Shown piece after piece: positions 18,982-38,301 of a stretch of 38,487 nucleotides of DNA. Position 1 is the stretch's first letter. Each line of letters begins with the position of its first letter. The notes below the pieces were generated by a model. It was not told the origin of the DNA. It searched no databases and saw only the letters and a list, made by a program, of their open reading frames with translations. A program made the position numbers and the translations under genes. Origin of the DNA: Saprospiraceae bacterium (GTDB taxonomy: Bacteria; Bacteroidota; Bacteroidia; Chitinophagales; Saprospiraceae); NCBI GenBank assembly GCA_013140975.1, contig JABFRV010000008.1, positions 1 to 38,487 of the forward strand, read 5' to 3'.

Positions 18982-19010
18982 GACTTTTGACAAAAATAAT
19001 TGACTTTTGA
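18982..19010. promoter_or_regulatory. Direct repeat GACTTTTGA x2 flanking a -7-like box
   Basis: GACTTTTGA occurs at 18982-18990 and 19002-19010, exactly 20 bases apart. Between them lies CAAAAATA (18991-18998), which on the minus strand is TATTTTTG, a perfect Bacteroidota -7 box that could drive the four-repeat lipoprotein. The arrangement suits a regulator-binding site covering the divergent promoter region. Confidence 0.4.
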
Positions 19011-19606
19011 GCCTTGTGAATAAAGAATCATTGGTATGGAATCGCTTAAGATCAGGTGAAGAATCTGCTCTTAAAGCCCTTTACCTTGAGTTTTTTGGCA
19101 ATCTCATTAATTATGGCAACAGGATGACGGTTCAACATGAACTCGTAGAGGACAGCGTTCAGGAGTCATTTGTTGAGATCTGGAGGCTACGGGAAACGTT
19201 GAGTCCCACAGATAGCCCCAAAAACTACTTAATCTGTGTTTTTCGCAGGATACTGATAAAAAAGCTTCAATCTAAAAAAGCTGATTTTTCTGAAGAAATA
19301 TTGCTTTCAGAGGCTGACTCATCTGCAGACTTTTTGAATGGCTTTATTGATCTTGAAAATCAATCTGAAATTCAAAAAAAATTACATAAAGCCATGGATC
19401 AACTCAGTAGCAGGCAGAAAGAGGCTATTTATCTAAAATTTGATCAAGGCCTCGAGTACGAGGATATATGTAAGGCCATGGATTTGCAATATCAGTCTGT
19501 TAGAAACCTTATATCCACAGGAATTCAAAGATTAAGAGAACAACTGAGCTCCTGGATTATTTTCATGTGTTTATTGAGTACATTTTCAGTAGTTAGCGCT
19601 TTTTAA
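19007..19606 (+). CDS. ECF sigma factor (FecI-like) with hydrophobic C-terminal tail
   Basis: Region 2 (about 25-90: ALYLEFFGNLINYG, VEDSVQESFVEIWRLRE) and region 4 (about 125-180: LSSRQKEAIYLKFDQGLEYEDICKAMDLQYQSVRNLISTGIQRLRE) are clear; the latter is the helix-turn-helix that reads the -35-like element. The last 19 residues (SSWIIFMCLLSTFSVVSAF) are strongly hydrophobic, as in some other Bacteroidota FecI-type sigma factors. The start is uncertain: TTG at 19007 (199 residues) or GTG at 19016 (196). It is the first gene of the sigma / FecR / TonB-receptor operon; the FecR gene starts 2 bases after the stop. Confidence 0.88.
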   Translation: MSLVNKESLVWNRLRSGEESALKALYLEFFGNLINYGNRMTVQHELVEDSVQESFVEIWRLRETLSPTDSPKNYLICVFRRILIKKLQSKKADFSEEILLSEADSSADFLNGFIDLENQSEIQKKLHKAMDQLSSRQKEAIYLKFDQGLEYEDICKAMDLQYQSVRNLISTGIQRLREQLSSWIIFMCLLSTFSVVSAF

Positions 19607-19607
19607 T

Positions 19608-20576
19608 ATGGGGGAAATGAAAAAGAATTACCATACATATCAAGTTTCGGACTTTATTGAAGACAAGGACTTCATGAACTGGCTTGCTCACCCAGATTCA
19701 ACCAGCTCCAAAGAGTTCTATGAGGTAATTTCGTCTAATAAGGATACTCTTCAAAAGGCAGAGAATGCCAAAGCTATTCTTCTTTCATTACAATACAAAA
19801 ATCTGAATAAGAGCCGGAATAAAGACAAAATCTGGTCCTCTATTCAAAACGATATTTCGACAACAAAGGGTAAATCCAGAAGATTATGGCCTTTGATTGC
19901 TGTTGCTGCTGCTTCAATCGGATTTATTTTATATTTTACTCTATTCAGGCCAGAAATAATTATTGAAAAATCACAACTTGCAGAACATAGACTGATACGG
20001 CTTCCGGATGATTCTTTTGTGACATTAAATGCGGATTCTGAAATTCAATATGACAAAACATCATTTGCTAAAAAACGTCGAATTCAACTTAAGGGAGAAG
20101 CATACTTTCAGGTAAAAAAAGGCAATCCGTTCTCTGTAGAAACTGCACAAGGCGAGGTAAAAGTTATCGGAACCAGTTTTAACATTTATTCAAGGAATGA
20201 TATTATGAATGTTTCCTGCATGATTGGAAAAGTAATTGTTCAATTTATAAATCAACAAAACGCATACACACTTAATGCCGGCATGTCCGTTAGTAATGCA
20301 AATAATACCATTACAAAAAGCAATTTTAATATAGAAGAACACAAGTTTTGGAGAGATGGGTACTTTTATTACAATAATGAATCCTTGGTTCAGGTAATGG
20401 AAGAATTAAAGCGACAGTACAATATTAAGACTCTGAATTATACAAATAATCTTCTACATTATAAATACAGCGGGTTTTTCAAAAAAGATAACCTCAATGA
20501 AGCAATAGAATCCGTATTTTTACCTTTAAAGCTAAATGCCACTTTTGAAAACGGGATTTTAAGCATTAAAGAATAA
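19608..20576 (+). CDS. FecR-family anti-sigma / signal-transducing protein
   Basis: The 322-residue protein has a cytoplasmic N-terminal region (about 1-95) that should hold the sigma factor, and one membrane segment (about 93-112: LWPLIAVAAASIGFILYFTLF). The periplasmic FecR domain follows (about 120-220: L.H.LIRLPD.S.VTLNADSEI.Y, RRIQLKGEAYFQV.KGNPF.V, GEVKVIGTSFNIYS). A C-terminal DUF4974-like domain (about 245-320) resembles an STN module and is thought to contact the receptor's N-terminal domain. It relays ligand occupancy of the TonB receptor to the sigma factor. The ATG at 19617 is an alternative start. Confidence 0.9.
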   Translation: MGEMKKNYHTYQVSDFIEDKDFMNWLAHPDSTSSKEFYEVISSNKDTLQKAENAKAILLSLQYKNLNKSRNKDKIWSSIQNDISTTKGKSRRLWPLIAVAAASIGFILYFTLFRPEIIIEKSQLAEHRLIRLPDDSFVTLNADSEIQYDKTSFAKKRRIQLKGEAYFQVKKGNPFSVETAQGEVKVIGTSFNIYSRNDIMNVSCMIGKVIVQFINQQNAYTLNAGMSVSNANNTITKSNFNIEEHKFWRDGYFYYNNESLVQVMEELKRQYNIKTLNYTNNLLHYKYSGFFKKDNLNEAIESVFLPLKLNATFENGILSIKE

Positions 20577-20584
20577 GAATAATT

Positions 20585-23200
20585 GTGAAGTTAATTTTAT
20601 CGGTTTTTTTTTCAGTCGTACTTTGCTCGATTCTACATTCCCAAGAGAAGCCTACTCAAAAGGTAGAGAAAATGAATCTTTCAGATGCATTTACCCTTCT
20701 TGAAAAAGAAAGGAAATTACATATTGCTTTTGATCCTATCGCATGTAAGAACTATCTGGTATTTAAATGGGATTCTCAGCAATCTAACGCGTCTATTTTA
20801 GACAATCTTCTACGAGCAACTCCTTTTCGATTCAAGCCTCAGGAAAAAAATCATTATTTGATTTACTCAGACCCTATTAAACTACAAGAGTTAAGTCTTT
20901 CTCAATCTTCCCTGACCTCTATTGAGTGCAGTGGAATTATTATAGATCATACAACAGGCGAATTTTTACCAGGTGCTATTGTAATCGTTATGCCGGAGTC
21001 ATTTGCAATAGTTTCTGATCAAAAGGGTAATTTTTCTTTACAACATAAAACATCATATCCGAATCCGTGGATTGAAATTCGATATCTAGGATATCAGACA
21101 CAGGTAATTCATTCTTTTAAAGATAAAAAGAATTTCCAAATTAAATTGGTACAGAATTATTCGCAACTTCCAGATGTTGAAATACAAGCCATTCGTCCAC
21201 AGTTAAATTTAAATAAAGTAAAGACTTTTCCTTCACATTTAAACTTTACGCCAGCAATTCAACTGAGTAAAAATGCATTCAACGATCCTTTGAGATCTCT
21301 GCAACAACTTCCGGGAATCAACGCCACTGAAGATAAAAATGTCGGCTTGCAAATCAGAGGAAGCAACGTAGAGGAAAATCTAATCTTGCTCAATGGATTG
21401 ATGCTATTTAGTGTTGATCACTTTTATGGAGTATTTAGCAATATCAACCCATACATTGTTTCTGAAATTAATGTTTACAAATCCTATTTTCCTTCAACTT
21501 TTGGAGGAAGATCTTCTTCAGTTATCAATATATTATCTCCTGCAGCCAACCAGGAATTTCATGGCGGAATCGATATAAATATGATTACAGCCAATGCGTA
21601 TGCATATATTCCTTTGGGGAAAAGAATAAACGTATTAGGAGCTTTCAGAACCACAACATTTGATCTTGGAGAAAATTCAACTTTTAATCAAATCGTTCGC
21701 AACAAAAAAAATAATGACTTACGAAATAGAGAATTAAATTTTGATCTCACAGCGATAAACCCTGATTACTCATTTCATGACTATTACTTAAAAGGAGATT
21801 ACAAGATCAGTAGATCAATAACCGCAAGCGCCTCTTATTTTAAGTCTTTTGATAAGATTCTTACGAAGTATGCAAGCAGTTTTAATGGAAATCAAAATGG
21901 TAGATATGCTGATACTTCCAGCTGGAATAGCAGAGGGTACATAGCAGGTCTAAAAGGGTCTTATTCTAATAATCTTAATTTTGAATTAAGCTATAGTCGC
22001 TCTGAATATGAATTCAATTATATGAATAATTCAGGTGTTCGTGATTTAAATACTGCATATTTAGAGAATTCTCAAGTACTCAACTCTGCATTCAATAATA
22101 ATATAAAGTTTTTAAATAAAATTAATGGCGTTAATTCTACAATAGAAGCGGGAATAGAATTCAATCAATTTCGATCAAATGTAAAAATGAATTTTAATTC
22201 ATTTGCTATTGTCTCTGAAGATAAAGTAGGGAATGAAATTTCTCCTTTCATTCATGCTCAGTTTAAGTTGTCCGAATATTTTAAATATTCTCCTGGATTT
22301 AGACTCATATTTTTTAATCAAAAATCTACACCGGATTTTTCACCTCGATTGAGTCTTGAATACAATTCCAAAAAAGGTTTTACATCAACATTGAATGCAG
22401 GTAGATATTTTCAATATTTAAGACAAGGAAGATATGAGGATCGATTTGGAAGAGAATTTTATTTATGGACTCAGGCAGATAAAAATGCAGTCCCTGTTTT
22501 ATCTTCCAATCAATTTGAATTGATTAACCAATACAAGTTCAATAATTCAATTATCAAAACTGAATTATATTTTAAATCACTTCAAGGGCTATTTGAAAAT
22601 TTGATCTTTGTTGATACCGGAAGATCCGTAAATCCTAAAAAGATTTTCCGCGAAGTTATTAATGGAAGAGGCAGGTCTTATGGCCTGGATTTGAGTTTTG
22701 AACAAATCTATAAATACTATTCATTTAATATAATTTATTCATATAATAAATCAGAGAATAGTTTTCCTGAAATTAATAATGAACAATATTATCAAAAACC
22801 CTATGTAAGAAGTCATCAATTCAAATTTATACAGCAGGTAAAATTTAATAAATTTACTTTTTCTTGTATCGCTGTTTATGGTAGTCCTTTACCCTATTAT
22901 GATGTAATTATATTAACGAAAAGTACCAGTATTAATAGAAACCCGAATCTCGATATCAAAGAGTTAGATGATTATTTTCGAATTGACTCAGACCTCCGGT
23001 ACAATATTCCTATTAAAAAATCCAGACTCGAAATATCTTGCTCTATATTAAATATTCTCGATAGAGAAAATGCAAAATTTATACAAACACTTTTTAGATT
23101 GGCGGATGCGAAGCCCGGAAATCCACAAATACAGACGATTGGAGCTGAAGTAAACAATCTTCGAAGGACAATCAATTTTGGAATCGGATATCATTTTTAA
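20585..23200 (+). CDS. TonB-dependent receptor/transducer with STN and CarboxypepD-reg domains
   Basis: The GTG at 20585 begins a signal peptide (ending LHSQ), 8 bases after the fecR-like stop. The domains in the 871 residues are: STN signalling domain (about 25-100), carboxypeptidase-regulatory-like beta-sandwich (about 115-195: GIIIDHTTGEFLPGAIVIV, KGNFSL), plug (about 220-325: LRSLQQLPGINATEDKNVGLQIRGSN.EENLILLNG...), and a 22-strand-type barrel ending in an aromatic residue (GIGYHF). It would import a siderophore or other ligand with TonB-ExbBD energy and, via the STN domain, signal through the FecR protein. No SusD homologue follows, so it is not a standard polysaccharide-utilisation pair. 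Ligand unknown. Confidence 0.92.
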   Translation: MKLILSVFFSVVLCSILHSQEKPTQKVEKMNLSDAFTLLEKERKLHIAFDPIACKNYLVFKWDSQQSNASILDNLLRATPFRFKPQEKNHYLIYSDPIKLQELSLSQSSLTSIECSGIIIDHTTGEFLPGAIVIVMPESFAIVSDQKGNFSLQHKTSYPNPWIEIRYLGYQTQVIHSFKDKKNFQIKLVQNYSQLPDVEIQAIRPQLNLNKVKTFPSHLNFTPAIQLSKNAFNDPLRSLQQLPGINATEDKNVGLQIRGSNVEENLILLNGLMLFSVDHFYGVFSNINPYIVSEINVYKSYFPSTFGGRSSSVINILSPAANQEFHGGIDINMITANAYAYIPLGKRINVLGAFRTTTFDLGENSTFNQIVRNKKNNDLRNRELNFDLTAINPDYSFHDYYLKGDYKISRSITASASYFKSFDKILTKYASSFNGNQNGRYADTSSWNSRGYIAGLKGSYSNNLNFELSYSRSEYEFNYMNNSGVRDLNTAYLENSQVLNSAFNNNIKFLNKINGVNSTIEAGIEFNQFRSNVKMNFNSFAIVSEDKVGNEISPFIHAQFKLSEYFKYSPGFRLIFFNQKSTPDFSPRLSLEYNSKKGFTSTLNAGRYFQYLRQGRYEDRFGREFYLWTQADKNAVPVLSSNQFELINQYKFNNSIIKTELYFKSLQGLFENLIFVDTGRSVNPKKIFREVINGRGRSYGLDLSFEQIYKYYSFNIIYSYNKSENSFPEINNEQYYQKPYVRSHQFKFIQQVKFNKFTFSCIAVYGSPLPYYDVIILTKSTSINRNPNLDIKELDDYFRIDSDLRYNIPIKKSRLEISCSILNILDRENAKFIQTLFRLADAKPGNPQIQTIGAEVNNLRRTINFGIGYHF

Positions 23201-26248: not shown

Positions 26249-27772
26249 TTACTTTGTCAACCTGTAATTCAGATTCAATCCAAATGATACAAAATCCTTA
26301 CTATATTGTATCGCGCTAAGTTTAGTTGGAGTCGAGTGACCATTAAATAATACATTGATTGACTCAAAAGGAAAATTATCTCTGTAATAACTGATGTCAG
26401 CACTTAAAGAAAATCTTGAAAATACTCTGTATTGAATGCCTAAATTATACCTCGTCTCACTATTGCGAATACGTATATACCGAAGATTCGGACTCTCTAC
26501 TGATACCAGACAGGTAAAAGGAAAACTATCAAGATTCATGCTTGATCTGTTTAGTAAGTAACTTAATTCAATCCCGGCGCCGGCAGACAATCGAGAAGTA
26601 ATATTATATTGTAATCGTATTGGAATGTTTATTGATTTTACTGAATTTACCAATTTAGCTTCTTTATCTACATAAAAAACCCTGTAATTCTCAGTTCCTT
26701 TCATAGATAAGTCTTTTTCATTTAATGAACTATTCTCCTCAAGCAGTTTGCTAATTGTAAAAATATTCGGAATCGAACTACTTACCAAATCAGCCTTACT
26801 GTATTCGAATTCACTACCCACTGCAAGTGATAGGATATCTTGAAATGTATACATCTGCATAATCCCAACTCTATTGGAAATTTTATGTGTACTTGCATTG
26901 CGATTGATTCCTGTTGATAAAAAGAAGTCATACTTATGCGTACGCTTTTTAGTATTGTTCGTAATTTTTTGCGGCACAAGAGCTTCTTGTTCTTTTAATA
27001 ATACGGAATCAATTATCTCTTTGGGATCTGCGGAATTAGAAACCTTGGGATATTCAGAGAATGTTGAGATATCAGAATTGGATCTAATATTCTTATTATC
27101 TGTTGAAAGCTCTGAATTTGGATTGCCTGGTGATTTTACATTTTCGTTTTCAACTAGATCTTTTCTAGTTATACTCATTGGGCTATTTATATCTGTTTCT
27201 TTTTGTTCAATAGCCGCATCAATCTTTAAATTATTATCATGAGTTGCTATTTGAGAATGAATATTATTTTCCAGAATCGTTTCACTTTGATCATTATTAA
27301 ATTTCTTTTTAAATTTCGATCCTGCTAAAGTTTTATTTTTTGAAGATGAAATACTTTTTTGATTATCGGTTGCAATCATTGCATTCTTTGCACCTGTTGA
27401 ATGACTTTGCAATAAATTCTTATTCTCTATATCTGAATTCGTCTGGCTTTTCTTTTCTGAATCAGATTGAAGAGTAGTGTTTTTACCACCATTTGTATTG
27501 GAATGATCTGCACTTTTATTCTCTTCACTATTTCTTGATTCATACTTCAATGCAATATTAGGTCTGGAATGATCTAAGGTTGGCTCAGTACTTGTACTCG
27601 TATTAAATACATTCAATAAATTAATGCCAAGAACCGCAATGCCCATGCCTAAAAATAACCATAGAAATGGAAATCTTTTATCATCTTTCTTATGAGGCAT
27701 TTCATGTTCCAGAATGACCTGCATTCTTTCCCAACCTTCCTTTTTTAATTCTTCCAATCTATTATCTTTCAT
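26249..27772 (-). CDS. Putative dual-membrane-spanning anti-sigma factor (Dma-type) with C-terminal outer-membrane barrel
   Basis: I use the ATG at 27772 (507 residues), which overlaps the sigma gene's stop by 11 bases in ATGAAAGATAA, a coupling arrangement; a TTG lies at 27784. The layout has four parts. Residues 1-30 form a cytoplasmic amphipathic helix (LEELKKEGWERMQVILEHEM). One membrane helix follows (about 35-57: FPFLWLFLGMGIAVLGINLLN). Then comes a Ser/Asn/Lys-rich, probably disordered region of about 220 residues. The last part (about 278-507) has barrel strands ending in FVSFGLNLNYRLTK. This matches the dual-membrane-spanning anti-sigma factors of Bacteroides thetaiotaomicron, in which one chain links outer membrane to a cytoplasmic sigma factor. 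Confidence 0.75.
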   Translation of the reverse strand: MKDNRLEELKKEGWERMQVILEHEMPHKKDDKRFPFLWLFLGMGIAVLGINLLNVFNTSTSTEPTLDHSRPNIALKYESRNSEENKSADHSNTNGGKNTTLQSDSEKKSQTNSDIENKNLLQSHSTGAKNAMIATDNQKSISSSKNKTLAGSKFKKKFNNDQSETILENNIHSQIATHDNNLKIDAAIEQKETDINSPMSITRKDLVENENVKSPGNPNSELSTDNKNIRSNSDISTFSEYPKVSNSADPKEIIDSVLLKEQEALVPQKITNNTKKRTHKYDFFLSTGINRNASTHKISNRVGIMQMYTFQDILSLAVGSEFEYSKADLVSSSIPNIFTISKLLEENSSLNEKDLSMKGTENYRVFYVDKEAKLVNSVKSINIPIRLQYNITSRLSAGAGIELSYLLNRSSMNLDSFPFTCLVSVESPNLRYIRIRNSETRYNLGIQYRVFSRFSLSADISYYRDNFPFESINVLFNGHSTPTKLSAIQYSKDFVSFGLNLNYRLTK

Positions 27773-28304
27773 AATTCTTTTCAATCATTTGTTTTAATAA
27801 TACACGAGCATTAGAAACATGCCACTTGGATGTTCCAACACTAATGTTAAGTCTACCGGAGATCTCTTCATGTGTATACCCTTCGACTGCAAATAAGTTA
27901 AATACCCTTCCCGTTGATTCCGGTAATTCAGACATAAGATTCTTCAAGTCAGTCTCAAAAAACATTTCCATGATCTGATCAGATTCCGCAAAATGATCCT
28001 GCAACTCGTCTGTCATTCTGTGTTTTTTATTCGCTCTGATCTCATCAATAAGACAATTGTAAACAATTTTCCTTATCCATCCATCTAGCGAACCTATATG
28101 CTTATAGCTTTGAATATTTTTAAATACTTTCAGAAAACCATTATTGACAATACTAATACACATTTCTTCATCCGGCACTCTTTTATAGCAATATAAATAC
28201 ATTGAATCAAAATAAGTCTTGTATAACCTCTCTTGCCAGAGACGACTATTCTCTATACACCCCTTTACCAATTCATTTTCACTAAATTCTCTTTCTCTTG
28301 CCAT
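27762..28304 (-). CDS. ECF sigma factor (partner of the dual-membrane anti-sigma protein)
   Basis: The 180-residue protein has region 2 (about 15-90: ENSRLWQERLYKTYFDSMYLYCYK, MCISIVNNGFLKVFKNIQSYKHIGSLDGWIRKIVYNCLIDEIR) and region 4 (about 120-175: LMSELPESTGRVFNLFAVEGYTHEEISGRLNISVGTSKWHVSNARVLLK). The EGYTHEEI...LNIS.GTSKWH motif is typical of Bacteroidota ECF sigmas coupled to envelope regulators, and differs clearly from the FecI-like factor at 19007. Its stop overlaps the start of the anti-sigma gene, and it starts 7 bases after the barrel-protein gene ends, so all are in one operon. Probably autoregulated, by family knowledge. Confidence 0.9.
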   Translation of the reverse strand: MAREREFSENELVKGCIENSRLWQERLYKTYFDSMYLYCYKRVPDEEMCISIVNNGFLKVFKNIQSYKHIGSLDGWIRKIVYNCLIDEIRANKKHRMTDELQDHFAESDQIMEMFFETDLKNLMSELPESTGRVFNLFAVEGYTHEEISGRLNISVGTSKWHVSNARVLLKQMIEKNYER

Positions 28305-28311
28305 CAGGCTT

Positions 28312-29061
28312 TTATAATTGTATTCCTATTCGAATCACAAATCTCTTATAAAAATATTGTTTTTCAGAAGATTTTAACCAATCATTCTGAGGTTCATGAA
28401 TCCATCTCGCTTTTTGCAATCTCACTCCCAAATCTATACTTGTATTAAAATGTTTCTTAGCTCCAAATCGTATACCCAATGCCGGATGAAACATCCATCC
28501 TCCGGGAGCAGATGTAATACTATATGATTCATCTTTCAGTCCCCAGGAATATCCACCGGCAATAGAATAAAAATAAGCCTTTTCTTTCCCAAGCAAATAT
28601 CCTCTGGCTTCAGTAAAAACCGGGATGACAGCTTTGTACGATTCTTCACCATAATAATCGTATCCAACTCCTACTCCTACTCCCAAATACTTGTTAATCA
28701 TATATCCGGTTACTGTCTCCACTCCGTAACCGAATGACGTTTGATCATAAATATTATTGCCGCTATTAACTTTCAAACTCGTAATATTATAAAATCCTTT
28801 TTCTCTAAATTCATAAGGAGCTTGAGTTCTAAACTTATAACTTTCATTCTGCACAATTCTCTTAACTTCAGATTGTGGAATTTGCATTATTATTTCACTG
28901 TCTTTCAATTGCAATTCATAAACTCCATTATTAATACTCTTTAAGTTTCCAATCAACTTTGATTTGTTTTTTAAATACAAGGTTGTTTGAATCAGATCAC
29001 TTTGAGCAAATATGAATTCACTGGTAAGTATTAAAAATGTAATGAAAATTTCTTTTTTCAT
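28312..29061 (-). CDS. Outer-membrane beta-barrel protein in the sigma operon
   Basis: The 249-residue protein has a signal peptide (to FIFAQ) and then a small beta domain (about 25-75: TTLYLKNKSKLIGNLKSINNGVYELQLKDSEIIMQIPQSEVKRIV), which looks like a short SH3/Sm-like strand set. From about 88 on, a barrel follows: FYNITSLKVNSGN, YMINKYLGVGVGVGYDYYG, IPVFTEARGYLL, AYFYSIAGGYSWG and RFVIRIGIQL ending in a hydrophobic residue. Its position between a surface lipoprotein gene and the sigma gene suggests it belongs to the same regulon. Function unknown. Confidence 0.7.
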   Translation of the reverse strand: MKKEIFITFLILTSEFIFAQSDLIQTTLYLKNKSKLIGNLKSINNGVYELQLKDSEIIMQIPQSEVKRIVQNESYKFRTQAPYEFREKGFYNITSLKVNSGNNIYDQTSFGYGVETVTGYMINKYLGVGVGVGYDYYGEESYKAVIPVFTEARGYLLGKEKAYFYSIAGGYSWGLKDESYSITSAPGGWMFHPALGIRFGAKKHFNTSIDLGVRLQKARWIHEPQNDWLKSSEKQYFYKRFVIRIGIQL

Positions 29062-29069
29062 ATTCTAAT

Positions 29070-30305
29070 TTATTGCACAGGTATATTACTTAAAAGTCTT
29101 AGCTTACTATTATTCTCTATGCTGTATTGACGAATTCCTTCTTCTCCTGTCAAGATGCAATGTTTTCTATCCGGGTATAGAATTATATCATTGACGAGTG
29201 ACAATTTTTCATGCTTTAATAGCTTCATATTTAATTTATCAGTAACATTATAAATTTTCAAACCATCATCACACACATAAAGAAAATCTTCACTGATTGC
29301 CAAGCCTCTTGGGCTGAACATGTCATATGATTTGATGATAACAGGTGTATAGATATTACTAATATCAATGATGTCAAGTTGATTTGTATATCCATTACAA
29401 GCTGTCCCTCCATGCAATGTTACATAGGCAGTATTTCCTTCCGCTACTACCGGATCACAAGAACTCCAATGTGAAACTGAACTAATCAAGTTAGGCAATG
29501 CCGGGTTCTTTAAACCGTACATAAACATTCCTGATGTCGAACCAATATATAAGAAGTCGTTGTATGGATAAATTGTCTCAATATTCCAACCTATTTGAAC
29601 CTTATTAAGTAATAATGGACACTGCTTCTTTATATCGAAAACATACAACTGTGAAATATCTACTGTATAAAGATAATCTCCATAAATTGTAAATCTTGCT
29701 GTTGATCCACCTAGCCCCGGTGCAGACCCACCGGATCCGTTAGAATTATTTTTAAATAAAACATCTCCTTCTGCAAACCAGCCTCTTCCAAAATTACGAT
29801 CTTCACAGGAAATTATCCTTCTAAACTCTGTCTTCTTATATCTTACAAGATAACCTCTTAAAGGATCTTTAAGAATTGGCATAAAAACATCTTCTACGCG
29901 GCAATGCAATACCGGGCTTGCAGGATTGGAAATATTAATGGCTAACAGATCTGTATAATTATCAGCATATAGAATGTTGTTTATAACTGCAAGATCCAAA
30001 TTACCGGGAATTGTTATAAAAGAAATAAATTGTGGTGAAGACGGATTGGAATTATTAACAATGTGTATCCCTTCATAAGGCTCATTGATTAATAAGTAAT
30101 CCCCGTATACATAAATTTTCCCGGCAGATTTTAAAGTTCTTGAAGCTCCAACCTTATAACCATTTTTGATTTCATCTTTGCTGACATAGACTGGATCATA
30201 TTGATAAAAAACTTCTTTATTCTGACACTCATCTTTCAAACAGGATGTAAATGAAACAGAAAGAAAAGTAAGGAGTAACCAAAATAATAACACATTTGAT
30301 TTCAT
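29070..30305 (-). CDS. LVIVD-repeat lipoprotein
   Basis: The 411-residue product has a lipoprotein signal with FTSC lipobox, Cys22. The rest is a string of LVIVD-type beta-propeller repeats: YLLINEPYEGIHIVNNSNPSSPQFISFITIPG, LDLAVINNILYADNYTDLLAINISNPASPVL, YLYTVDISQLYVFDIKK, FLYIGSTSGMFMYGLKNPALPNLIS, AYVTLHGGT...LDIIDISNIYTPVIIKSY and FLYVCDDGLKIYNV. Such repeats (about 40 residues each) build an extracellular or periplasmic propeller of unknown binding partner. It lies 47 bases from the next upstream gene and 8 bases from the barrel gene, in the sigma operon. Confidence 0.85.
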   Translation of the reverse strand: MKSNVLLFWLLLTFLSVSFTSCLKDECQNKEVFYQYDPVYVSKDEIKNGYKVGASRTLKSAGKIYVYGDYLLINEPYEGIHIVNNSNPSSPQFISFITIPGNLDLAVINNILYADNYTDLLAINISNPASPVLHCRVEDVFMPILKDPLRGYLVRYKKTEFRRIISCEDRNFGRGWFAEGDVLFKNNSNGSGGSAPGLGGSTARFTIYGDYLYTVDISQLYVFDIKKQCPLLLNKVQIGWNIETIYPYNDFLYIGSTSGMFMYGLKNPALPNLISSVSHWSSCDPVVAEGNTAYVTLHGGTACNGYTNQLDIIDISNIYTPVIIKSYDMFSPRGLAISEDFLYVCDDGLKIYNVTDKLNMKLLKHEKLSLVNDIILYPDRKHCILTGEEGIRQYSIENNSKLRLLSNIPVQ

Positions 30306-30352
30306 ACAATTTTATTTTATGTTGTTAAAAATATTTTATTTTTAAATTCAGA

Positions 30353-30751
30353 TTAATACTCAACTATACAACTTGAATTCCCTAACCATACACAACTAAG
30401 TTCATTCTTAAGATCTACAAGTGAAGATTCGAATGTAATATCAGTGTGGTCAGGAACTGAGATGTTTTCAGATATCAAACCCTCTTTGTATGTTTTCTTA
30501 AATAGTACTTTAGTTGATTGTAGTACCTTAATTTCTATACCTTGACTAGGACATAGACCATTCTGTATAATAGAAAATTTTATCTGATTCGATTCCCCGG
30601 TATTAAAATTCTGTACATCTTTTCCTTTAACAGTGGAAAATAAATCTCCCATCTTAAATTTAATTTTATTTGTGCAAACGCAAGTTGCATCTTCTTTCTT
30701 ACATTGGATAGAAAAACAAACTACAGTAATCAATAATAATAATTTTTTCAT
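30353..30751 (-). CDS. Small lipoprotein of unknown family
   Basis: The 132-residue product has a lipoprotein signal (lipobox SIQC, Cys17). The mature part begins with a Cys-rich motif (CKKEDATCVCTNKI) followed by about 100 residues of predicted beta structure with three further Cys residues near residue 86 and the end (LSCVWLGNSSCIVEY). I do not recognise the family. It is the second gene of the minus-strand operon, 34 bases after the first; its context suggests an envelope component under control of the operon's sigma factor. Confidence 0.65.
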   Translation of the reverse strand: MKKLLLLITVVCFSIQCKKEDATCVCTNKIKFKMGDLFSTVKGKDVQNFNTGESNQIKFSIIQNGLCPSQGIEIKVLQSTKVLFKKTYKEGLISENISVPDHTDITFESSLVDLKNELSCVWLGNSSCIVEY

Positions 30752-30785
30752 ACATACTATCTTTTAAAATTAACTATATAAGTTA

Positions 30786-31157
30786 TTATGGCATATAGGC
30801 CACTATTCTAACAAATGATTCATTAATTTTAGAAAAGTGTTCCTTAAAAAATACCGGATCGATCTCACTTATTTCCTCCCCATTACAATTAAATAAATGA
30901 GGTCTGAACCTACAACAATAACATCCTCCTGAAAAATAATTCTCTCCTTTGTATTCATGTAAATTTAAATAATATATACAGGGATGTAGGTTCTCACCGT
31001 TATATTCTACTAAGTTTTGTATTCTTATTATACTTTGAATACAATTTTGCTGCATAACACTTTCAACATTGTCCAAAGTTTCATTTTCAGAATTACAAGA
31101 ACTCATAAAACATAATAAGAAGGTCAATGTGCCAAAAATCAATACGTTTAGTTTCAT
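30786..31157 (-). CDS. Small Cys-rich lipoprotein, first gene of the sigma operon
   Basis: The 123-residue product has a lipoprotein signal (lipobox SSC, Cys21). The mature sequence has an unusual Cys cluster GGCYCCRF near residue 80 plus further Cys at about 39, 60 and 90, suggesting disulfides or metal binding. No family is recognised. It is the promoter-proximal gene of the operon running to 26249, divergent from the DinB gene at 31269 across 111 bases. Confidence 0.6.
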   Translation of the reverse strand: MKLNVLIFGTLTFLLCFMSSCNSENETLDNVESVMQQNCIQSIIRIQNLVEYNGENLHPCIYYLNLHEYKGENYFSGGCYCCRFRPHLFNCNGEEISEIDPVFFKEHFSKINESFVRIVAYMP

Positions 31158-31206
31158 ATAAGAATTTTATCCTTTCTTCTAATTAGACGAATTCAATGTG
31201 TCTTTG

Positions 31207-31237
31207 GTTGGTAAAATCTATAAAAATTCTAATTTTG
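31207..31237 (+). promoter_or_regulatory. Bacteroidota-type promoter of the second DinB gene
   Basis: GTTG at 31207-31210 and TAATTTTG at 31230-31237 are separated by exactly 19 bases, the spacing of the Bacteroidota primary-sigma promoter (TTTG-N19-TAnnTTTG). The ATG follows 31 bases after the -7 box. Confidence 0.55.
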
Positions 31238-32011: not shown

Positions 32012-32299
32012 ATGAAAAAGTATTTAATCTGCCTATTAATAGGCCTGAACTACTATTGCTCACAACTTAATGCTCAATCAGTGCAATTGGAGACCATGGT
32101 TCTTGTCCTCTTGGCAACCCTGAATCTAGCTCAATGCACTTTTGGACATTTACCTCATTTAGATCAAGAATTGACGCTCTTTAAAGATATAAAATTAATT
32201 ATGTTAGTTCATGATAATCAATCGGATAGCTTTTCTATGCAATTGAATTCTAAATATTATAGAAAGAAATATGTATTTTTCTACGAAATTGGAAACTAA
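32012..32299 (+). CDS. Short secreted protein, cassette A (shares signal peptide with the large T9SS protein)
   Basis: The 95-residue product has a signal peptide ending LNAQ (residues 1-22). Residues 1-42 closely resemble the N-terminus of the 1457-residue protein at 33928, then the sequence changes completely. The tail (LDQELTLFKDIKLIML, SKYYRKKYVFFY) is shared only with cassette B at 32999; about three quarters of residues are identical and the length is the same. No T9SS tail or known domain is present. It may be a truncated paralogue or a genuine small exported protein. A Cys-rich lipoprotein gene follows after 49 bases. Confidence 0.55.
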   Translation: MKKYLICLLIGLNYYCSQLNAQSVQLETMVLVLLATLNLAQCTFGHLPHLDQELTLFKDIKLIMLVHDNQSDSFSMQLNSKYYRKKYVFFYEIGN

Positions 32300-32348
32300 T
32301 AAGAAATTATTCTCTTCAACTTTATTCTATTAATTAAAAATAATAATA

Positions 32349-32865
32349 ATGAAAAATATCTTGTACCTCTCAATCATTAACTTAATCATAACCTTTAGTT
32401 GTTGTCAAGAAGAAGAACCTTGCCCTACGTGCTTCGACAATATCGTCAGTTGCAAGGTTAATGGTAAGGATTGGGTGTCTAATTGCATAAGTAATGATCC
32501 ACTTTTTGGATGTAGTGCAGTAAGATGTTATTATTCATTTAATCTAGCTAGAGGACTTGATTTTTCTGCTGTTAATGATCGAGACAATTCTGGAATTACA
32601 CTTGATCAAGGCAGTGCATGGGGGGGGGAAATTAGGAATTAATACGGTACAGCAAAGAGAATTTGGATTTACAAATTTTGTGTTAAAAGGAAACTGTATA
32701 GCTTTAGATTCAACAGACTTTACTTTCAATAATAGCTTTGAAATAATTTTAATTGATACAATTAATTATGTTATTGAGGGTAAATTCCAGTGCAGAGTAT
32801 ATAACTTATGTGGAGACACTGCAACAATTACAGATGGATATTTCAAAACGAAATTTTTATTTTAA
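32349..32865 (+). pseudogene. Cys-rich lipoprotein, cassette A, out of frame at a nine-G tract
   Basis: The frame starts at 32349 with a lipoprotein signal (FSCC lipobox) and the CKVNGKDWVSNC motif. It runs in parallel with the intact paralogue at 33342 until a run of nine G (32620-32628), after which it stops at 32642. The remainder of the homologous protein (FTNFVLKGNC to YFKTKFLF) continues in the +1-shifted frame to 32865. Eight or eleven G would restore a full-length protein of about 171 residues, the length of the cassette B copy. So this is either a phase-variable gene in the OFF state, a pseudogene, or a homopolymer sequencing error. Confidence 0.7.
32620..32628. repeat. Homopolymeric G9 tract inside a lipoprotein gene
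   Basis: Nine consecutive G occur within coding sequence in a genome of low GC. The tract is the exact point where the lipoprotein frame is lost. Confidence 0.9.
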
Positions 32866-32911
32866 TATATTTAATTCACCTGCTGAAATTACTAACCAGA
32901 CTGGACACACG

Positions 32912-32968
32912 CCGCTTTCGCGGTTCCTTCATTTTTTGTGCTGTCGCACAAAATTCCACTATGTGGAA
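32912..32968. repeat. Three consecutive short hairpins between cassettes A and B
   Basis: CCGC-TTTC-GCGG (32912-32923), TTTTGTGC-TGTC-GCACAAAA (32934-32953) and TTCCAC-TAT-GTGGAA (32954-32968) are three perfect stem-loops packed into 57 bases. The middle one is preceded by Ts and followed by As. They may terminate the cassette A transcript or belong to an extragenic repeat family. A much degraded counterpart may lie upstream of cassette A (about 31907-31960). Confidence 0.6.
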
Positions 32969-32998
32969 ATCGTTCAGTCATCCCAAAAACTATTTATC

Positions 32999-33286
32999 AT
33001 GAAAAAGTATTTACTCTGCCTATTCATAGGCCTGAGCTACTATTGCTCGCAACTTAATGCTCAGACAGAGCAATTAGAGACTAAGTTTCTCAATGTCTTG
33101 TCAACCATGGATAAAGCTCAATGCACTTTTAGGCATTTACCTTATTTAGATCAAGAATTGACGCTCTTTAAAGATATAAAATTAATTATGTTACCTCAAG
33201 ATAATCAATCGGATAACCTACATGGGCAATTGAATTCTAAATATTATAGAAAGAAATATGTATTTTTCTACGGAATTGGAAACTAA
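32999..33286 (+). CDS. Short secreted protein, cassette B
   Basis: I start at the ATG at 32999, not at the upstream end of the open frame at 32753, because the signal peptide begins here and matches cassettes A and C. The 95-residue product is identical to the large protein's N-terminus for residues 1-28 and then departs; DNA identity with 33928 onward is complete for about 85 bases. The C-terminal half matches cassette A. Same unknowns as cassette A. A Cys-rich lipoprotein gene follows after 55 bases, reproducing the order of cassette A. Confidence 0.55.
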   Translation: MKKYLLCLFIGLSYYCSQLNAQTEQLETKFLNVLSTMDKAQCTFRHLPYLDQELTLFKDIKLIMLPQDNQSDNLHGQLNSKYYRKKYVFFYGIGN

Positions 33287-33341
33287 TAAGAAATTATTCT
33301 CTTCAACTTTGTACTATTAATTAATTAGAAAAACAATTATT

Positions 33342-33860
33342 ATGAAAAATATAATATACTCATTAAGCCTTACTATAACACTACTATTCAGCTGTTGCAA
33401 GGAAGAAGAACCCTGCTCTACTTGCTTCGAAAATGTAGTACGATGCAAGATCAATGGAAAAGACTGGGTATCTAATTGCAAGAGTAATGATCCATTATTT
33501 GGTTGTTGGGATTTGCTTTGTTATTACTATTTTAGGAGTGGAAATGGCTTTGAAATTAGAGCAAATAGTTCAGTCGATAATAATTCAATAAATATTAATG
33601 TATTCAGCGCAAATGGTGGTTTAATAAATGGATTGAATAATTTAGCAAGCAATGAAATAGGTTATTCAGATTTTGCAAATAGTGGCAATTGTTCTAAATA
33701 TAGGCGACAGGATACAAATTATTTTAATAATTTAGTCATTGAACAAATTGATACTTTTAATTTTATCGTTATCGGAAGTTTTAGCTTTAAAGTTCATAAT
33801 GAATGCGGTGATAGTACATTAATTACCGATGGATATTTCAAAACGAAATTTTTATTTTAA
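33342..33860 (+). CDS. Cys-rich lipoprotein, cassette B (intact)
   Basis: The 172-residue protein has a lipoprotein signal with FSCC lipobox. The mature part opens with KEEEPCSTCFENVVRCKINGKDWVSNC and continues with a second Cys cluster (FGCWDLLCYY) and a beta-rich body ending YFKTKFLF. The C-x-V/I-NGK-x-W motif occurs at the start of many Bacteroidota surface lipoproteins of unknown function. It is the complete counterpart of the frame-disrupted copy at 32349. It lies between the cassette B secreted protein and the large T9SS protein, all in one orientation. Confidence 0.7.
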   Translation: MKNIIYSLSLTITLLFSCCKEEEPCSTCFENVVRCKINGKDWVSNCKSNDPLFGCWDLLCYYYFRSGNGFEIRANSSVDNNSININVFSANGGLINGLNNLASNEIGYSDFANSGNCSKYRRQDTNYFNNLVIEQIDTFNFIVIGSFSFKVHNECGDSTLITDGYFKTKFLF

Positions 33861-33927
33861 CATATTTTATTAACCAGAAGAAGTCCTAATATTCCAAAGA
33901 CAGATTTCATCCCAAAAACAATTTATC

Positions 33928-36900
33928 ATGAAAAAGTATTTACTCTGCCTATTCATAGGCCTGAGCTACTATTGCTCGCAACTTAATGCTCAGACAGAGC
34001 AATTAGAGACTAAAGTTCTCAATGCATTATCTACACTTGACCAGGCACAATGTCCTTCCGGAAGACTGTATGATCGAGTCCCTAAGTATTACCCACTGGA
34101 GTATTGGCGTGGAGACTATATGAGTGATAGCACTTCATTCTTAATCAGCCGATTCTCCATGCTTCATGGGATGCTAAGAGTTATGGATGTAGATCAGAAT
34201 TCTACAGTACCTGAGATGAACTCTCTTATACTTGATGCGCAAGAGTATAAGAACTCCGATACTCTCAGACTTGGGGTCTTATTTTATCACTATGACCGAT
34301 TACATGACTCTGCTATGACCAAGAATCTTGTAAGCTATCAGAATGAACAGTTCTATGATGTGCCCGGAAGGAATGAAAGCCCATATCTTGCGGATACGCT
34401 CTTCGCCTTTAGTGCATACATACATCTTAAGCACAAGCTGGATCAGAAGTTCATCCTTCCATCCGACTTTATTACTACGAGTATGAGCTATTCATCTCTT
34501 GAGATTGATCTTGATGATGGATTAGGTTATCGTACCCTAAGCACTGACCAGCTGATTGAGATAGCTTATGCTGACTATGGCATCAAGAGACTTAAGTGTA
34601 GATTAACTGATCAGAACGGAAGAATCTATATAGCGCAATCTATACTCGAGCTAAGTCCAGCAACAGGAGGCCTTAACTTCAATGTAGATGCTGATGACTC
34701 AGTGAGCTTATCAGGAGTTAAAGTATTCTGGTGGTATAATAAGAATTGTGATGATAGGAAGATCCGTAAGCCCTTAATTCTAATTGAAGGATTTGATCCT
34801 TTAAATACTTTAGGATCAGATCTAGTATTTAAAAAATATTCAGGAGAAGACGGATTATTAGATAGGTTTTATGAAAATCCAAAATTATTATCTGAATATC
34901 TCCACGACGATGATTACGATGTATTCTACATAGATTACAAGCAAGGACATATTAAGATACAGGACAATGCCTTCTATGTCCAGCAAGCTATTGATTGGAT
35001 TAACGAGCGCAAGCATAAGGATGGATCATATGAATCCAATATTGTAATCGGAGCGAGCATGGGAGGTGTGGTCGGATACTATGCCTTGAAGCAGATGGAG
35101 AACTTAGGTAAGAATCATGAAGCAGAATTATATCTAACAGTTGACTCTCCGCTAAAGGGTGCTAATATTCCGGTAGGTATGCAAGCATTTATACATGAAC
35201 TTGCTAATTATGAAATAGGAGGTAAAAAGCTTAAAGATCAAGGCGAAGATAATGGCTTAAAAAAAGGAACTTTTGCATTGAATAGTGACGCAGCCAATCA
35301 GATGCTTTATTATCATCTTGATTCAGACTGGGGCGCTTCAGGTCCAGGACAACATGTGATAACAGCTAATAAGCTTGGTGTCAAGCATGATATGTTCTAT
35401 GCTGAATTAGAGTCAATGGGTAATCTCAATATTAAACATTATGCTATTGCCAATGGAAGTATTATTCGTAAGTCACAACAATTCAGCAGTGGCGATGTAT
35501 TAGCGGATGCGGAAATCAATGTGGATGACCTAATAGCTCAAGCTGACTTCTTGCTATTTAATGTCCAGACCGTCAAAGCAATACTTGGCACTCTTGGTGC
35601 TGACTTCAAAAGCTATCACAATATTAAAGCTCTTAAAGATGGCTCATCTGGAACCGTGTATTCCGGAAAATTTGTTACCAAGATATTACTATTACCATTA
35701 GAATATAAAGTTAGTTATACTATAAGTGGTGCTAAGCCATTTGATAACGCACCCGGTGGAATGAGGATTTTCGAAAAAGGGCTTGATTGGAATCATGATG
35801 CCTTTTGCTTCATTCCAACAATTAGTTCACTGCGACTTAATACAACTGATCCATTCTACCAAGACATAGATAACCTTTCAGATGTAGAAATGACTTTAAC
35901 ACAAGGAAGGACTTCGGCAGCATATTATTCCGGCTCACTTGAGCAGAAGGCTTTTTATAAGAACGGTAATTTATTCTGGAATGAAGATCATGTATCTTTG
36001 AATAAGAGGCTTGCTGAATATCTGCGCAACATAGTCGGTTATTCTACAACGATTATTAATAATCCGTTGACCAATAATACTTTTAACTTCGGCACTAATC
36101 ATCCAAGCGCAGATGATATTAAGAATAATAGGAAGACAAGATTTAGGAATATTATTAATTATGACCTGGACATTATCAGTGATGGTGTGCTGTGGGTTAA
36201 TAATCTTAATCGCATCGGATATATTAACAATACTAATAATCCTATGAATGGATATGATAAGACTTATGAACTTAATATAATTCAGGATTGTATCGACACG
36301 ACTTTAATTCTTGTCAAGCAAGGTGGATTCATTAAGATCGGAGAATCTTCCATTAATCGAAAAGCTGTATTACAACTCAATGATTCAACAAGAATGGTTA
36401 TATCAGATTATGGTCATGTAAAGGTAGAATGCAAGTCTGTACTAAATGTTAATTCAGGCGCGATACTGACCGTAGATAAAGATGGTAAACTAGAGGCAGG
36501 ATATGACTCCAAGATAATAGTTCGAAAGAATGGAATCTTAAGAATTAATGGTAAAGGAGTTCTTCATCTCACAGATAATGCTGAAGTAATAGTAGAATGG
36601 GGAGGAAAAATCATAATTGAGAATGGAGCGATTCTTAGATTACAAGATGGTAATCTGGACAATAATGGTCGATGCCGAATTCTCGTAGATTACAATGGAT
36701 TATTCAGATACGAAGGACCGTGGAAGCATGAAGGAAATGGACATATCCAATTCAATCAACAAAGTAAATTTAGCGTTAATCCAGGTTTTGATGTAATTAT
36801 GACTGGATTCAAGAAGAATATAACATTCTTAAGGATTAATACTAATAATAAAATGGATATTGTCTGTCAATTATTAAGTATTAATAAAGGGACAATTGAT

Positions 36901-38301
36901 TATGAAGAGCGCACACAATTAAACATTTCGGGCGACTTAAGTCTTGACAGCGTAGTTATACAAGGCACTAATAATTATGTTCCTCAATTTGTTCAATCTT
37001 CTGCTTTTAATGTACGTTCAAGCAGTCGAACATTTAGATTCTATTTAACCGATTTTAAGAATCTTGTAAGTGGAATAACGGAAACCAATATTAGCAAATC
37101 ATCAAATGATTTAGCAGATTTCAGACGAACTACCTTTGCAAATGTACATTATCCATTTCAATTATTTAATTGTTGGGAAGCAAAGTTTGACTCTGTTTAT
37201 GCAACCCTGGGATCCGGATGCAAGATCTTTAACGCGAATAAAGTGATTATGAATAGATTTCATATATCTCATTTTGGGACTGCTGTTGAACTAAATGGAC
37301 AGTATTATGACAGTAAGACATATGCAATCGTAAGAAATTCTTCATACTCCAATTGTGGTATTGGCATTAGAGGAACAGAGAAAGTCAATCTATTTGCTTA
37401 TAATACACAATTTACAAATAATTCATCTGGCATACACATGAACGGAGATAATAATCTTGGGATTGTAGAGTTAGGATGTTGTACATTTATTAATAATGAG
37501 GTTGCAGTCAATGGCTCAGATATACTTTTTAGTATAAGTCCATTAAGCGCTGGAAATGGATATGGTGCTCCTGGAAACAATAAATTTATTCTTTCCAATC
37601 TAATAAATAATTATTTTACAGTTGCTTATTTACTTAGAGATATTCAGCAAGTGAATGCTGAATACAACTATTGGGGAGGCGGTGCTCCTGATCCAAGTAA
37701 TTACTGGCTTGAGAAAGGTGGCAGTCTAGTTCCACTTATTTATACACCTTATCATACACTTACTTATCATACTTGCCCAACTCAGACCAATGGAGGCTTT
37801 AACAATTTTTGTGGTCTTACTGGAGGTACAATCGGCCAGAGTTTTACCGATATTAGAATAGATGCCATCATAGACTTTCAAGATAATAATATAAATGGTG
37901 CTGAGCAAAAGATGCAGATGATTAGTGATGAGCAAGGTTCTAATTACAATAGCAGCACGGGAGCTTGCAGATTCCATTTTGATTACGCACGTGCCTTTAC
38001 AGAATATGGTTCAGGAACTCCACCAATTCAACCTGTAATTTTTAAGTCAAAAGATCTTATGAAAGAATCTATAATAATTAAGCCCAATCCTGCAACTACT
38101 TTTATCAATTTTATACATAATGAGGGCATTAATAGTTTGGAGATTATGACAACATTTGGTCAAGTGTTAAGTAAGTTTGATTATAACATTCCGTCGAAAG
38201 TCATAAAGATTGATGTTTCAGTATATCCTAAGGGAATTCTCTTGGTTAAATCAATTGATATATATGGACACACTTCAATTAAAAAGTTTATAAAAGTTTA
38301 G
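33928..38301 (+). CDS. Large secreted alpha/beta-hydrolase (lipase-like) with beta-helix region and T9SS sorting domain
   Basis: The 1457-residue protein has a signal peptide (to LNAQ, residue 22). An N-terminal helical region covers about 40-230. The alpha/beta-hydrolase-like domain covers about 280-640: PLILIEGFDP near the first strand, nucleophile elbow GASMGG with Ser377, candidate acid Asp406 (LTVDSP) and candidate base His623 (NHDAFCFIPTISSL). Residues about 810-990 and 1080-1300 form repeated short strands typical of a right-handed parallel beta-helix (SNCGIGIRG, TNNSSGIHMNG). Residues 1382-1457 are a T9SS type A sorting domain (KPNPATTFINF, VYPKGILLVKS). Probably a cell-surface lipase/esterase-like enzyme or adhesin; substrate unknown. 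Confidence 0.8.
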   Translation: MKKYLLCLFIGLSYYCSQLNAQTEQLETKVLNALSTLDQAQCPSGRLYDRVPKYYPLEYWRGDYMSDSTSFLISRFSMLHGMLRVMDVDQNSTVPEMNSLILDAQEYKNSDTLRLGVLFYHYDRLHDSAMTKNLVSYQNEQFYDVPGRNESPYLADTLFAFSAYIHLKHKLDQKFILPSDFITTSMSYSSLEIDLDDGLGYRTLSTDQLIEIAYADYGIKRLKCRLTDQNGRIYIAQSILELSPATGGLNFNVDADDSVSLSGVKVFWWYNKNCDDRKIRKPLILIEGFDPLNTLGSDLVFKKYSGEDGLLDRFYENPKLLSEYLHDDDYDVFYIDYKQGHIKIQDNAFYVQQAIDWINERKHKDGSYESNIVIGASMGGVVGYYALKQMENLGKNHEAELYLTVDSPLKGANIPVGMQAFIHELANYEIGGKKLKDQGEDNGLKKGTFALNSDAANQMLYYHLDSDWGASGPGQHVITANKLGVKHDMFYAELESMGNLNIKHYAIANGSIIRKSQQFSSGDVLADAEINVDDLIAQADFLLFNVQTVKAILGTLGADFKSYHNIKALKDGSSGTVYSGKFVTKILLLPLEYKVSYTISGAKPFDNAPGGMRIFEKGLDWNHDAFCFIPTISSLRLNTTDPFYQDIDNLSDVEMTLTQGRTSAAYYSGSLEQKAFYKNGNLFWNEDHVSLNKRLAEYLRNIVGYSTTIINNPLTNNTFNFGTNHPSADDIKNNRKTRFRNIINYDLDIISDGVLWVNNLNRIGYINNTNNPMNGYDKTYELNIIQDCIDTTLILVKQGGFIKIGESSINRKAVLQLNDSTRMVISDYGHVKVECKSVLNVNSGAILTVDKDGKLEAGYDSKIIVRKNGILRINGKGVLHLTDNAEVIVEWGGKIIIENGAILRLQDGNLDNNGRCRILVDYNGLFRYEGPWKHEGNGHIQFNQQSKFSVNPGFDVIMTGFKKNITFLRINTNNKMDIVCQLLSINKGTIDYEERTQLNISGDLSLDSVVIQGTNNYVPQFVQSSAFNVRSSSRTFRFYLTDFKNLVSGITETNISKSSNDLADFRRTTFANVHYPFQLFNCWEAKFDSVYATLGSGCKIFNANKVIMNRFHISHFGTAVELNGQYYDSKTYAIVRNSSYSNCGIGIRGTEKVNLFAYNTQFTNNSSGIHMNGDNNLGIVELGCCTFINNEVAVNGSDILFSISPLSAGNGYGAPGNNKFILSNLINNYFTVAYLLRDIQQVNAEYNYWGGGAPDPSNYWLEKGGSLVPLIYTPYHTLTYHTCPTQTNGGFNNFCGLTGGTIGQSFTDIRIDAIIDFQDNNINGAEQKMQMISDEQGSNYNSSTGACRFHFDYARAFTEYGSGTPPIQPVIFKSKDLMKESIIIKPNPATTFINFIHNEGINSLEIMTTFGQVLSKFDYNIPSKVIKIDVSVYPKGILLVKSIDIYGHTSIKKFIKV

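Follow-up and report, generated by a model that had tools for sequence, protein, structure and literature searches.

A Dma-type sigma/anti-sigma pair in a Saprospiraceae operon, with a predicted promoter that links it to lipoprotein genes

A tight operon of six genes, on the minus strand of a contig from a Saprospiraceae bacterium, ends in genes for an ECF sigma factor, Das, and a protein, Dma, that is predicted to span both membranes. The operon lies at positions 26249–31157 of the 38,487-nucleotide stretch analysed here ("the window"). Structure prediction, profile comparison, and sigma factor phylogeny support the original prediction that this is a Dma-type anti-sigma factor paired with its ECF sigma factor. 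We consider it probable (roughly 0.7) that the pair controls its own operon, and that an LVIVD-repeat lipoprotein and a small barrel protein, BB2, are outputs of the switch, not obligatory parts of its sensor. Most likely, the barrel of Dma is the sensor, while the LVIVD lipoprotein, the second barrel, and the small lipoproteins are outputs. The type of switch is known from gut Bacteroides, and in Bacteroides thetaiotaomicron it regulates vesiculation; the present set of partners, and the predicted promoter linking them, seem to be undescribed.

Organization of the operon

The first two genes encode small Cys-containing lipoproteins, i.e., LP1 (30786–31157, 123 aa, lipobox SSC) and LP2 (30353–30751, 132 aa, lipobox IQC followed by KKED). 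Next come the genes for an LVIVD-repeat lipoprotein of the beta-propeller type (29070–30305, 411 aa; PF08309, E = 2e-14, three repeats) and for BB2 (28312–29061, 249 aa), in which the sequence pattern suggests a short N-terminal module and a small outer-membrane barrel. The last two genes encode Das (27762–28304, 180 aa) and Dma (26249–27772, 507 aa, ATG start). The intergenic gaps are, in order, 34, 47, 8, and 7 bp, and das and dma overlap by 11 bp. These coordinates bear out the six genes, their terminal pair, and the 11-base overlap as originally predicted.

Architecture of Dma

An AlphaFold2 prediction of Dma alone, with an alignment of 21 orthologues as input, gave the architecture expected of a dual-membrane protein. 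Helices were predicted at residues 4–24 (27701–27763, minus strand), the presumed cytoplasmic helix, and at residues 35–58 (27599–27670, minus strand), the transmembrane span; orthologues have a hydrophobic stretch at the position of the latter. Residues 60 to about 245 have pLDDT values <50 and probably form a disordered tether, although one nearer to 185 residues than to the ~220 first proposed. Residues 280–504 (26261–26935, minus strand) form eight long strands, many with pLDDT values >90. The best PDB matches in a Foldseek search were OmpA, OmpW, OmpX, and Ail. The Pfam family OMP_b-brl matched Dma weakly (0.0025), and OMP_b-brl_2 matched 12 of the 21 orthologues. Thus, the short N-terminal helix, the single inner-membrane helix, and the C-terminal barrel that had been read from the sequence all appear in the model of the 507-residue protein. 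The N-terminal helix, together with residues 25–26, carries a conserved W..M...LD.EMP motif, of which W14, L21, and P26 are invariant across the 21 orthologues. A fold of the Das–Dma read-through scored a pLDDT of 87.5 and a pTM of 0.59, in an output that carries no contact information. Searches of Dma and BB2 for FecR and STN domains returned no match.

Kinship with known systems

Das matches Sigma70_r4_2 (1.6e-10) and Sigma70_r2 (7e-6). Known Dma proteins are encoded beside an ECF21-type sigma factor. For its phylogeny, reference orthologues of das1/das2 and dma1/dma2 were named by synteny in two Bacteroidaceae genomes, with dma2 marked by DUF4943 and nitronate-monooxygenase-like neighbors and dma1 by a NigD-like neighbor. 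Das groups with the das1 and das2 orthologues in one clade (support 99/98), apart from other ECF sigma factors. The clade comprises all Dma-partnered sigma factors plus one Bacteroidaceae sigma factor of unclear partner; an AU test did not reject a grouping without one of the Bacteroidaceae sigma factors (p = 0.195). Within the clade, the LVIVD-associated sigma factors form a subclade (support 96/81). In profile comparisons with the Dma1/Dma2 orthologues, the barrel of Dma matched with a probability of 97.8 (E = 1e-12) and the N-terminus with E = 8e-7.

The same genome holds five further pairs of the das–dma type, and the pair is found across the host's family and order. The system therefore does occur outside the gut Bacteroidales, as had been proposed, but not as an exception: it is common, and the class is already described as Bacteroidota-wide (PMC13088901).

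Dma1/Das1 and Dma2/Das2 of Bacteroides thetaiotaomicron (PMC13088901) share with the present pair their domain order, an adjacent sigma factor of the same clade, and profile similarity, although sequence identity between the Dma proteins is very low. In the dma2 orthologue the genes overlap, as das and dma do here. The neighbors differ: the dma2 operon encodes DUF4943, DUF4858, and an enoyl-reductase-like protein, and dma1 has a NigD-like neighbor, whereas the operon here carries the LVIVD lipoprotein, BB2, and small lipoproteins. A similar pair in Phocaeicola vulgatus, M0N98_03760-61, likewise consists of a sigma factor followed by a predicted periplasm-spanning anti-sigma factor with a C-terminal barrel. 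Its activation leads to longer O-antigen and protection against toxins, and a NigD-like lipoprotein is among the induced genes; the parts of that study consulted report no LVIVD operon (PMC9308784).

FecI/FecR/TonB-receptor systems likewise combine an ECF sigma factor, a membrane-anchored anti-sigma factor, and signal input at the outer membrane. In those systems the barrel is that of a distinct TonB-dependent receptor protein, whereas here barrel and anti-sigma factor are one polypeptide. One FecI/FecR/TonB-receptor system lies in the same window, at 19007–23200.

Conservation of gene order

In 20/20 orthologous loci, das is directly followed by a Dma-like gene. The gene pair is therefore conserved, and the dma reading frame is not due to chance. 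The six-gene order is not the conserved unit: a core of four genes (LVIVD lipoprotein–BB2–das–dma) is common to several genera, and LP1 and LP2 are lineage-specific. The only LP1 homologue is distant (E = 2e-7) and belongs to the orthologous operon at locus L044, and a search for LP2 homologues near the orthologous operons found none; we rejected both as conserved operon members.

The core itself can be split. LVIVD–BB2 pairs with no adjoining das are common (family f21 and several genomes of family f1), and in two genomes, G122 and G036, das–dma and LVIVD–BB2 lie on separate contigs. Two loci were left out of the unlinked cases: L106, which stops at a contig edge, and L151, which has a Dma-like gene nearby. 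Locus L155 has both das and dma and is linked.

A predicted promoter

An ECF-type motif, CCAACC-N17/18-GTCT, was found upstream of das in 16/20 orthologous loci, mostly at the start of the operon, in a search of the 5 kb upstream of das; shuffled sequences gave an expectation of 0.33, and the other strand gave 1. The exact motif is missing in the other 4/20 das loci. The only match in the window is a predicted Das-type promoter on the minus strand (31185–31211), with a −35 element CCAACC (31206–31211), a 16-nt spacer, and a −10 element CGTCT (31185–31189); its first base is 54 bp from the LP1 start codon. The first gene behind the motif varies between loci: it encodes a small lipoprotein in L029, BB2 in L030 and L043, the LVIVD lipoprotein in L031, L035, and L037, and Das in L045.

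The motif also accompanies genes that lie away from das. In G122 and G036, it is present on both separated units, including directly upstream of the stand-alone das. Five LVIVD–BB2 pairs with no adjoining das (L115, L118, L122, L126, and L127) retain it, which marks them as targets. The motif is also found ahead of LVIVD genes away from das and of small lipoprotein genes scattered elsewhere; small lipoprotein genes recur under it even though LP1 and LP2 are not conserved. Among strict genome-wide matches outside the training set, 11/61 lie just upstream of lipoprotein genes, whereas the reversed motif has 0/30 such positions (Fisher p = 0.009), with lipoproteins scored partly by eye. Because the motif precedes das-unlinked LVIVD genes and scattered lipoprotein genes, the LVIVD lipoprotein, BB2, and the small lipoproteins are most likely outputs. 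Of the two roles that the original prediction had allowed, sensor partner and output, the promoter evidence favors the latter.

Raw whole-genome counts show no excess over the reversed control (9 versus 13 for the strict motif in the host genome, 39 versus 43 for a relaxed motif), and we rejected counts per genome as evidence. The signal is therefore positional, and the regulon small.

Self-control has precedents. In B. thetaiotaomicron, the Dma operons are induced by their own sigma factor, and deletion of dma2 raises bt_1556, bt_1557, and das2 by 4.5–6 log2 (PMC13088901). In P. vulgatus, the sigma gene of the pair is self-induced, rising 33-fold under toxin-induced envelope stress (PMC9308784). 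These cases support own-operon control here, where it is predicted.

The partner proteins

The LVIVD lipoprotein is 39–46% identical across 11 orthologous loci, and 134/199 sampled genomes of the order have an LVIVD match. Several families have LVIVD genes with neither a nearby das nor the motif, so the function of the protein is not linked exclusively to Das. A search for PDB relatives gave weak matches only, to one haloalkylphosphorus hydrolase. Its mature N-terminus is CLKDEC. A C-X-K-(D/E)2 sequence after the lipid-anchored Cys is a surface-export signal, derived from Capnocytophaga (PMC5080379); CLKDE of the LVIVD lipoprotein and CKKED of LP2 fit this Capnocytophaga consensus, and the full K-(D/E)2 signal is kept in 0/11 LVIVD orthologues.

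BB2 is predicted to be a small outer-membrane barrel. Its orthologues adjoin LVIVD and/or Das in most loci of the family; common to them are a signal peptide, a short module at the N-terminus, and alternating beta residues with a terminal aromatic residue. Pfam support is absent or weak.

Alternative readings

What the Dma barrel senses is a separate question from what Das transcribes. The barrel could be a client of the BAM machinery, such that failed insertion frees Das, much as enterobacterial sigma-E monitors outer-membrane assembly. This proposal concerns the signal and is compatible with own-operon control; we think it rather unlikely. The barrel is of the OmpA class, a known Dma-type pair is co-induced with BamA-inhibitor response genes (PMC9308784), and the motif lies upstream of bamA in 3/30 loci (two g223 genomes and one other). 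However, the other 27 bamA loci, the host genome's included, do not have it, and the two clear cases are congeners. We rejected bamA as a general target.

Alternatively, the LVIVD lipoprotein and BB2 could be sensor partners, with the propeller binding a surface ligand and, together with BB2, passing the signal to the barrel of Dma, as a transducer does to an anti-sigma factor. The tight, conserved LVIVD–BB2–das–dma order, the shared subclade of the sigma factors, and the LVIVD–das–dma loci that lack BB2 (families f9, f22, and f18) are consistent with this, and sensors too may be autoregulated. It is nevertheless unlikely, given that das-free LVIVD–BB2 pairs are common, some with the motif alone, and that das–dma has no adjoining LVIVD gene in G036 and G122.

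That the motif is a housekeeping promoter or belongs to another of the genome's roughly 20 ECF-like sigma factors, with das merely co-transcribed and the operon outside Das control, is very improbable, as the motif lies directly upstream of stand-alone das and its type tracks the sigma subclade (CCAACC..GTCT with f1/f2 sigma factors, GGCAAC..CGTT with f9/f22).

Proposed mechanism and implications

Under own-operon control, the N-terminal helix of Dma would hold Das at the inner membrane in the resting state, with the barrel in the outer membrane. A ligand sensed by the barrel, or a disturbance of barrel assembly or of the outer membrane, would free Das, which would then transcribe the operon from CCAACC-N16-CGTCT. 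Das activity would raise the levels of the LVIVD propeller lipoprotein, the small barrel, and the small Cys-containing lipoproteins, and more Das and Dma would also be made, so that the circuit would feed back on itself. Both the LVIVD lipoprotein and BB2 may remodel or protect the surface.

More tentatively, and with the odds against it, these systems could be a new dual-membrane sigma subfamily across one Bacteroidota order, with a dedicated surface-lipoprotein regulon that acts as a protective coat. Such a coat would be induced upon attack on the outer membrane, e.g., by proteases, toxins, or predators, and would consist of the conserved LVIVD propeller, the barrel that accompanies it, and small Cys lipoproteins that change fast, Kazal or serpin protease inhibitors among them.

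To our knowledge, descriptions of Dma systems come from only a small number of gut species, and little is known about which promoters they use or which genes they target directly. The predicted promoter, the conserved target gene, and the linked and unlinked arrangements make a direct Dma regulon testable. Together, they suggest that Dma-class systems, well beyond the gut, have the control of outer-membrane lipoproteins among their core functions.

Organization of the operon

All six genes of the minus-strand operon were confirmed at their predicted positions (26249-31157), in the order LP1, LP2, LVIVD, BB2, das, dma. The first four intergenic gaps measure 34, 47, 8 and 7 bp; the last two genes, das and dma, share 11 bp, as originally noted. 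The operon's contig is 38,487 bases long, from a genome of 3.97 Mb. Gene content and relatives mark this genome as one of the Bacteroidota, perhaps of the Saprospiraceae. The next co-directional gene begins 168 bp beyond the operon, and no terminator-like site was found in those 168 bp. The window also contains a second ECF sigma system at 19007-23200 (+), of the ordinary FecI/FecR-like/STN-bearing TonB-receptor kind. Separately, the region 32012-34000 (+) holds partial tandem copies of the signal-peptide part of a 1457-aa protein (33928-38301), i.e., at 32012 and inside 32753-33286, and a reading frame for a related lipoprotein (32349, 33342) comes after each copy.

Architecture of Dma

The putative anti-sigma factor was modeled with AlphaFold2 using 21 orthologues. 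In the predicted structure, residues 4-24 form a helix and residues 35-58 a transmembrane helix; the chain is disordered from residue 60 to roughly 245, and residues 280-504 contain eight long strands. Foldseek neighbors of the predicted barrel are OmpA, OmpW, OmpX and Ail, in agreement with the proposed C-terminal barrel. OMP_b-brl_2 is present in 12 of the 21 proteins. Immediately preceding the membrane helix is a W..M...LD.EMP motif; W14, L21 and P26 are invariant across the 21 sequences. Das and the Dma N-terminus were also folded as a read-through, in-frame through the das stop codon of an orthologue (L029); this fold does not report contacts.

Conservation and relationship to known pairs

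Orthologues of das (~40-46% identity) occur at 20 loci across the family and order. A Dma-like gene lies directly 3' of das in every case (20/20), a BB2 homologue lies upstream in most, and LVIVD is present in 11. A reverse survey of 60 LVIVD loci of the order revealed four arrangements: LVIVD alone, LVIVD-BB2, LVIVD-das-dma and LVIVD-BB2-das-dma. Of the six genes, LVIVD, BB2, das and dma recur together, but the two small lipoproteins, LP1 and LP2, are not common to orthologous operons: among these, the only homologue found was one of LP1, in the L044 operon. The mature N-termini of LVIVD (CLKDE) and LP2 (CKKED) fit a surface-export signal known from Capnocytophaga (PMC5080379), but the full signal is absent from every LVIVD orthologue compared.

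DUF4943 marks the dma2 operon (PMC13088901). A search for this domain in 395 genomes of the phylum identified two genomes of one family, which we infer to be Bacteroidaceae, with the dma2 gene order. A second pair in these genomes adjoins a divergent NigD-like lipoprotein and was taken as das1-dma1. In profile comparisons with the four dma1/dma2 reference proteins, the window's Dma family matched over the barrel (probability 97.8, E 1e-12), and the N-terminal region alone gave an E of 8e-7. In the sigma tree, every Dma-partnered sigma, including das1 and das2, falls in one clade (99/98) apart from other ECFs, with LVIVD-associated sigmas forming a subclade (96/81). The larger clade also takes in one more sigma from the presumed Bacteroidaceae genomes, without a clear Dma partner. 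The window's genome encodes five additional sigma-Dma pairs (L058, L060, L061, L062, L063), and the type is therefore common there. L058 and L063, at least, are preceded by a large lipoprotein gene. At locus L077 of genome G287, a das-clade sigma is followed by a reading frame in which no membrane helix is clear. This may be a partner that has diverged or is broken, or a relative of Dma3, which is described as sigma and Dma in a single protein.

A predicted promoter and its candidate targets

A spaced-word search upstream of LVIVD genes identified CCAACC-N17/18-GTCT, which occurs there far more often than in shuffled sequences. The sole match in the window (31185-31211, minus strand) lies ahead of LP1. 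Scored as CCAAC-N18/19-GTCT, the exact motif is present in the 5 kb preceding das in 16 of 20 loci; shuffled sequences gave 0.33 on average and at most 3, and the opposite strand gave 1. Because the sets used to derive the motif overlap these loci, this count describes fit and is not an independent test. In many loci, the motif marks the operon start regardless of which gene comes first: a small lipoprotein gene (L029), BB2 (L030, L043), LVIVD (L031, L035, L037, L039, L046) or das (L045). In two genomes (G122, G036), das-dma and LVIVD-BB2 are on separate contigs, with the motif at both units, and in G122 das itself lies behind a strict match. Two families (f9 and f22) have GGCAAC-N17/18-CGTT instead, which fits the separate subclade formed by their sigmas.

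Strict matches were collected from 19 genomes. Total numbers showed no excess over control; therefore, only position supports function. With training sites excluded, 11 of 61 matches lie upstream of small lipoprotein genes, at distances of 10-47 bp; none of 30 matches to the reversed pattern do so (p 0.009). These lipoprotein sites and the unlinked das loci of G122 are independent of motif derivation. One of the 11 is in the window's own genome (L163, contig C15:5581-5608, minus strand), 18 bp upstream of a gene for a 72-aa Kazal-domain lipoprotein, likely a second target there. Others precede genes for a serpin lipoprotein (L241), a META-domain lipoprotein (L249) and eight further small lipoproteins. 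Of 30 bamA loci, 3 carry the motif. Two of these belong to a single genus (g223; L245/L278, L175/L277), where it stands immediately before bamA in two genomes; most of the family lacks it.

Proposed mechanism

A published Dma-type pair is induced by envelope damage (PMC9308784), and in a published Dma system the sigma raises expression of its own operon (PMC13088901). Read most simply, the window's operon would be a self-amplifying switch, and this agrees with the published systems. An outer-membrane input would arrive via the Dma barrel, and Das, presumably bound by Dma, would be set free at the inner membrane. Freed Das would then induce outer-membrane lipoproteins, together with more of the switch itself.
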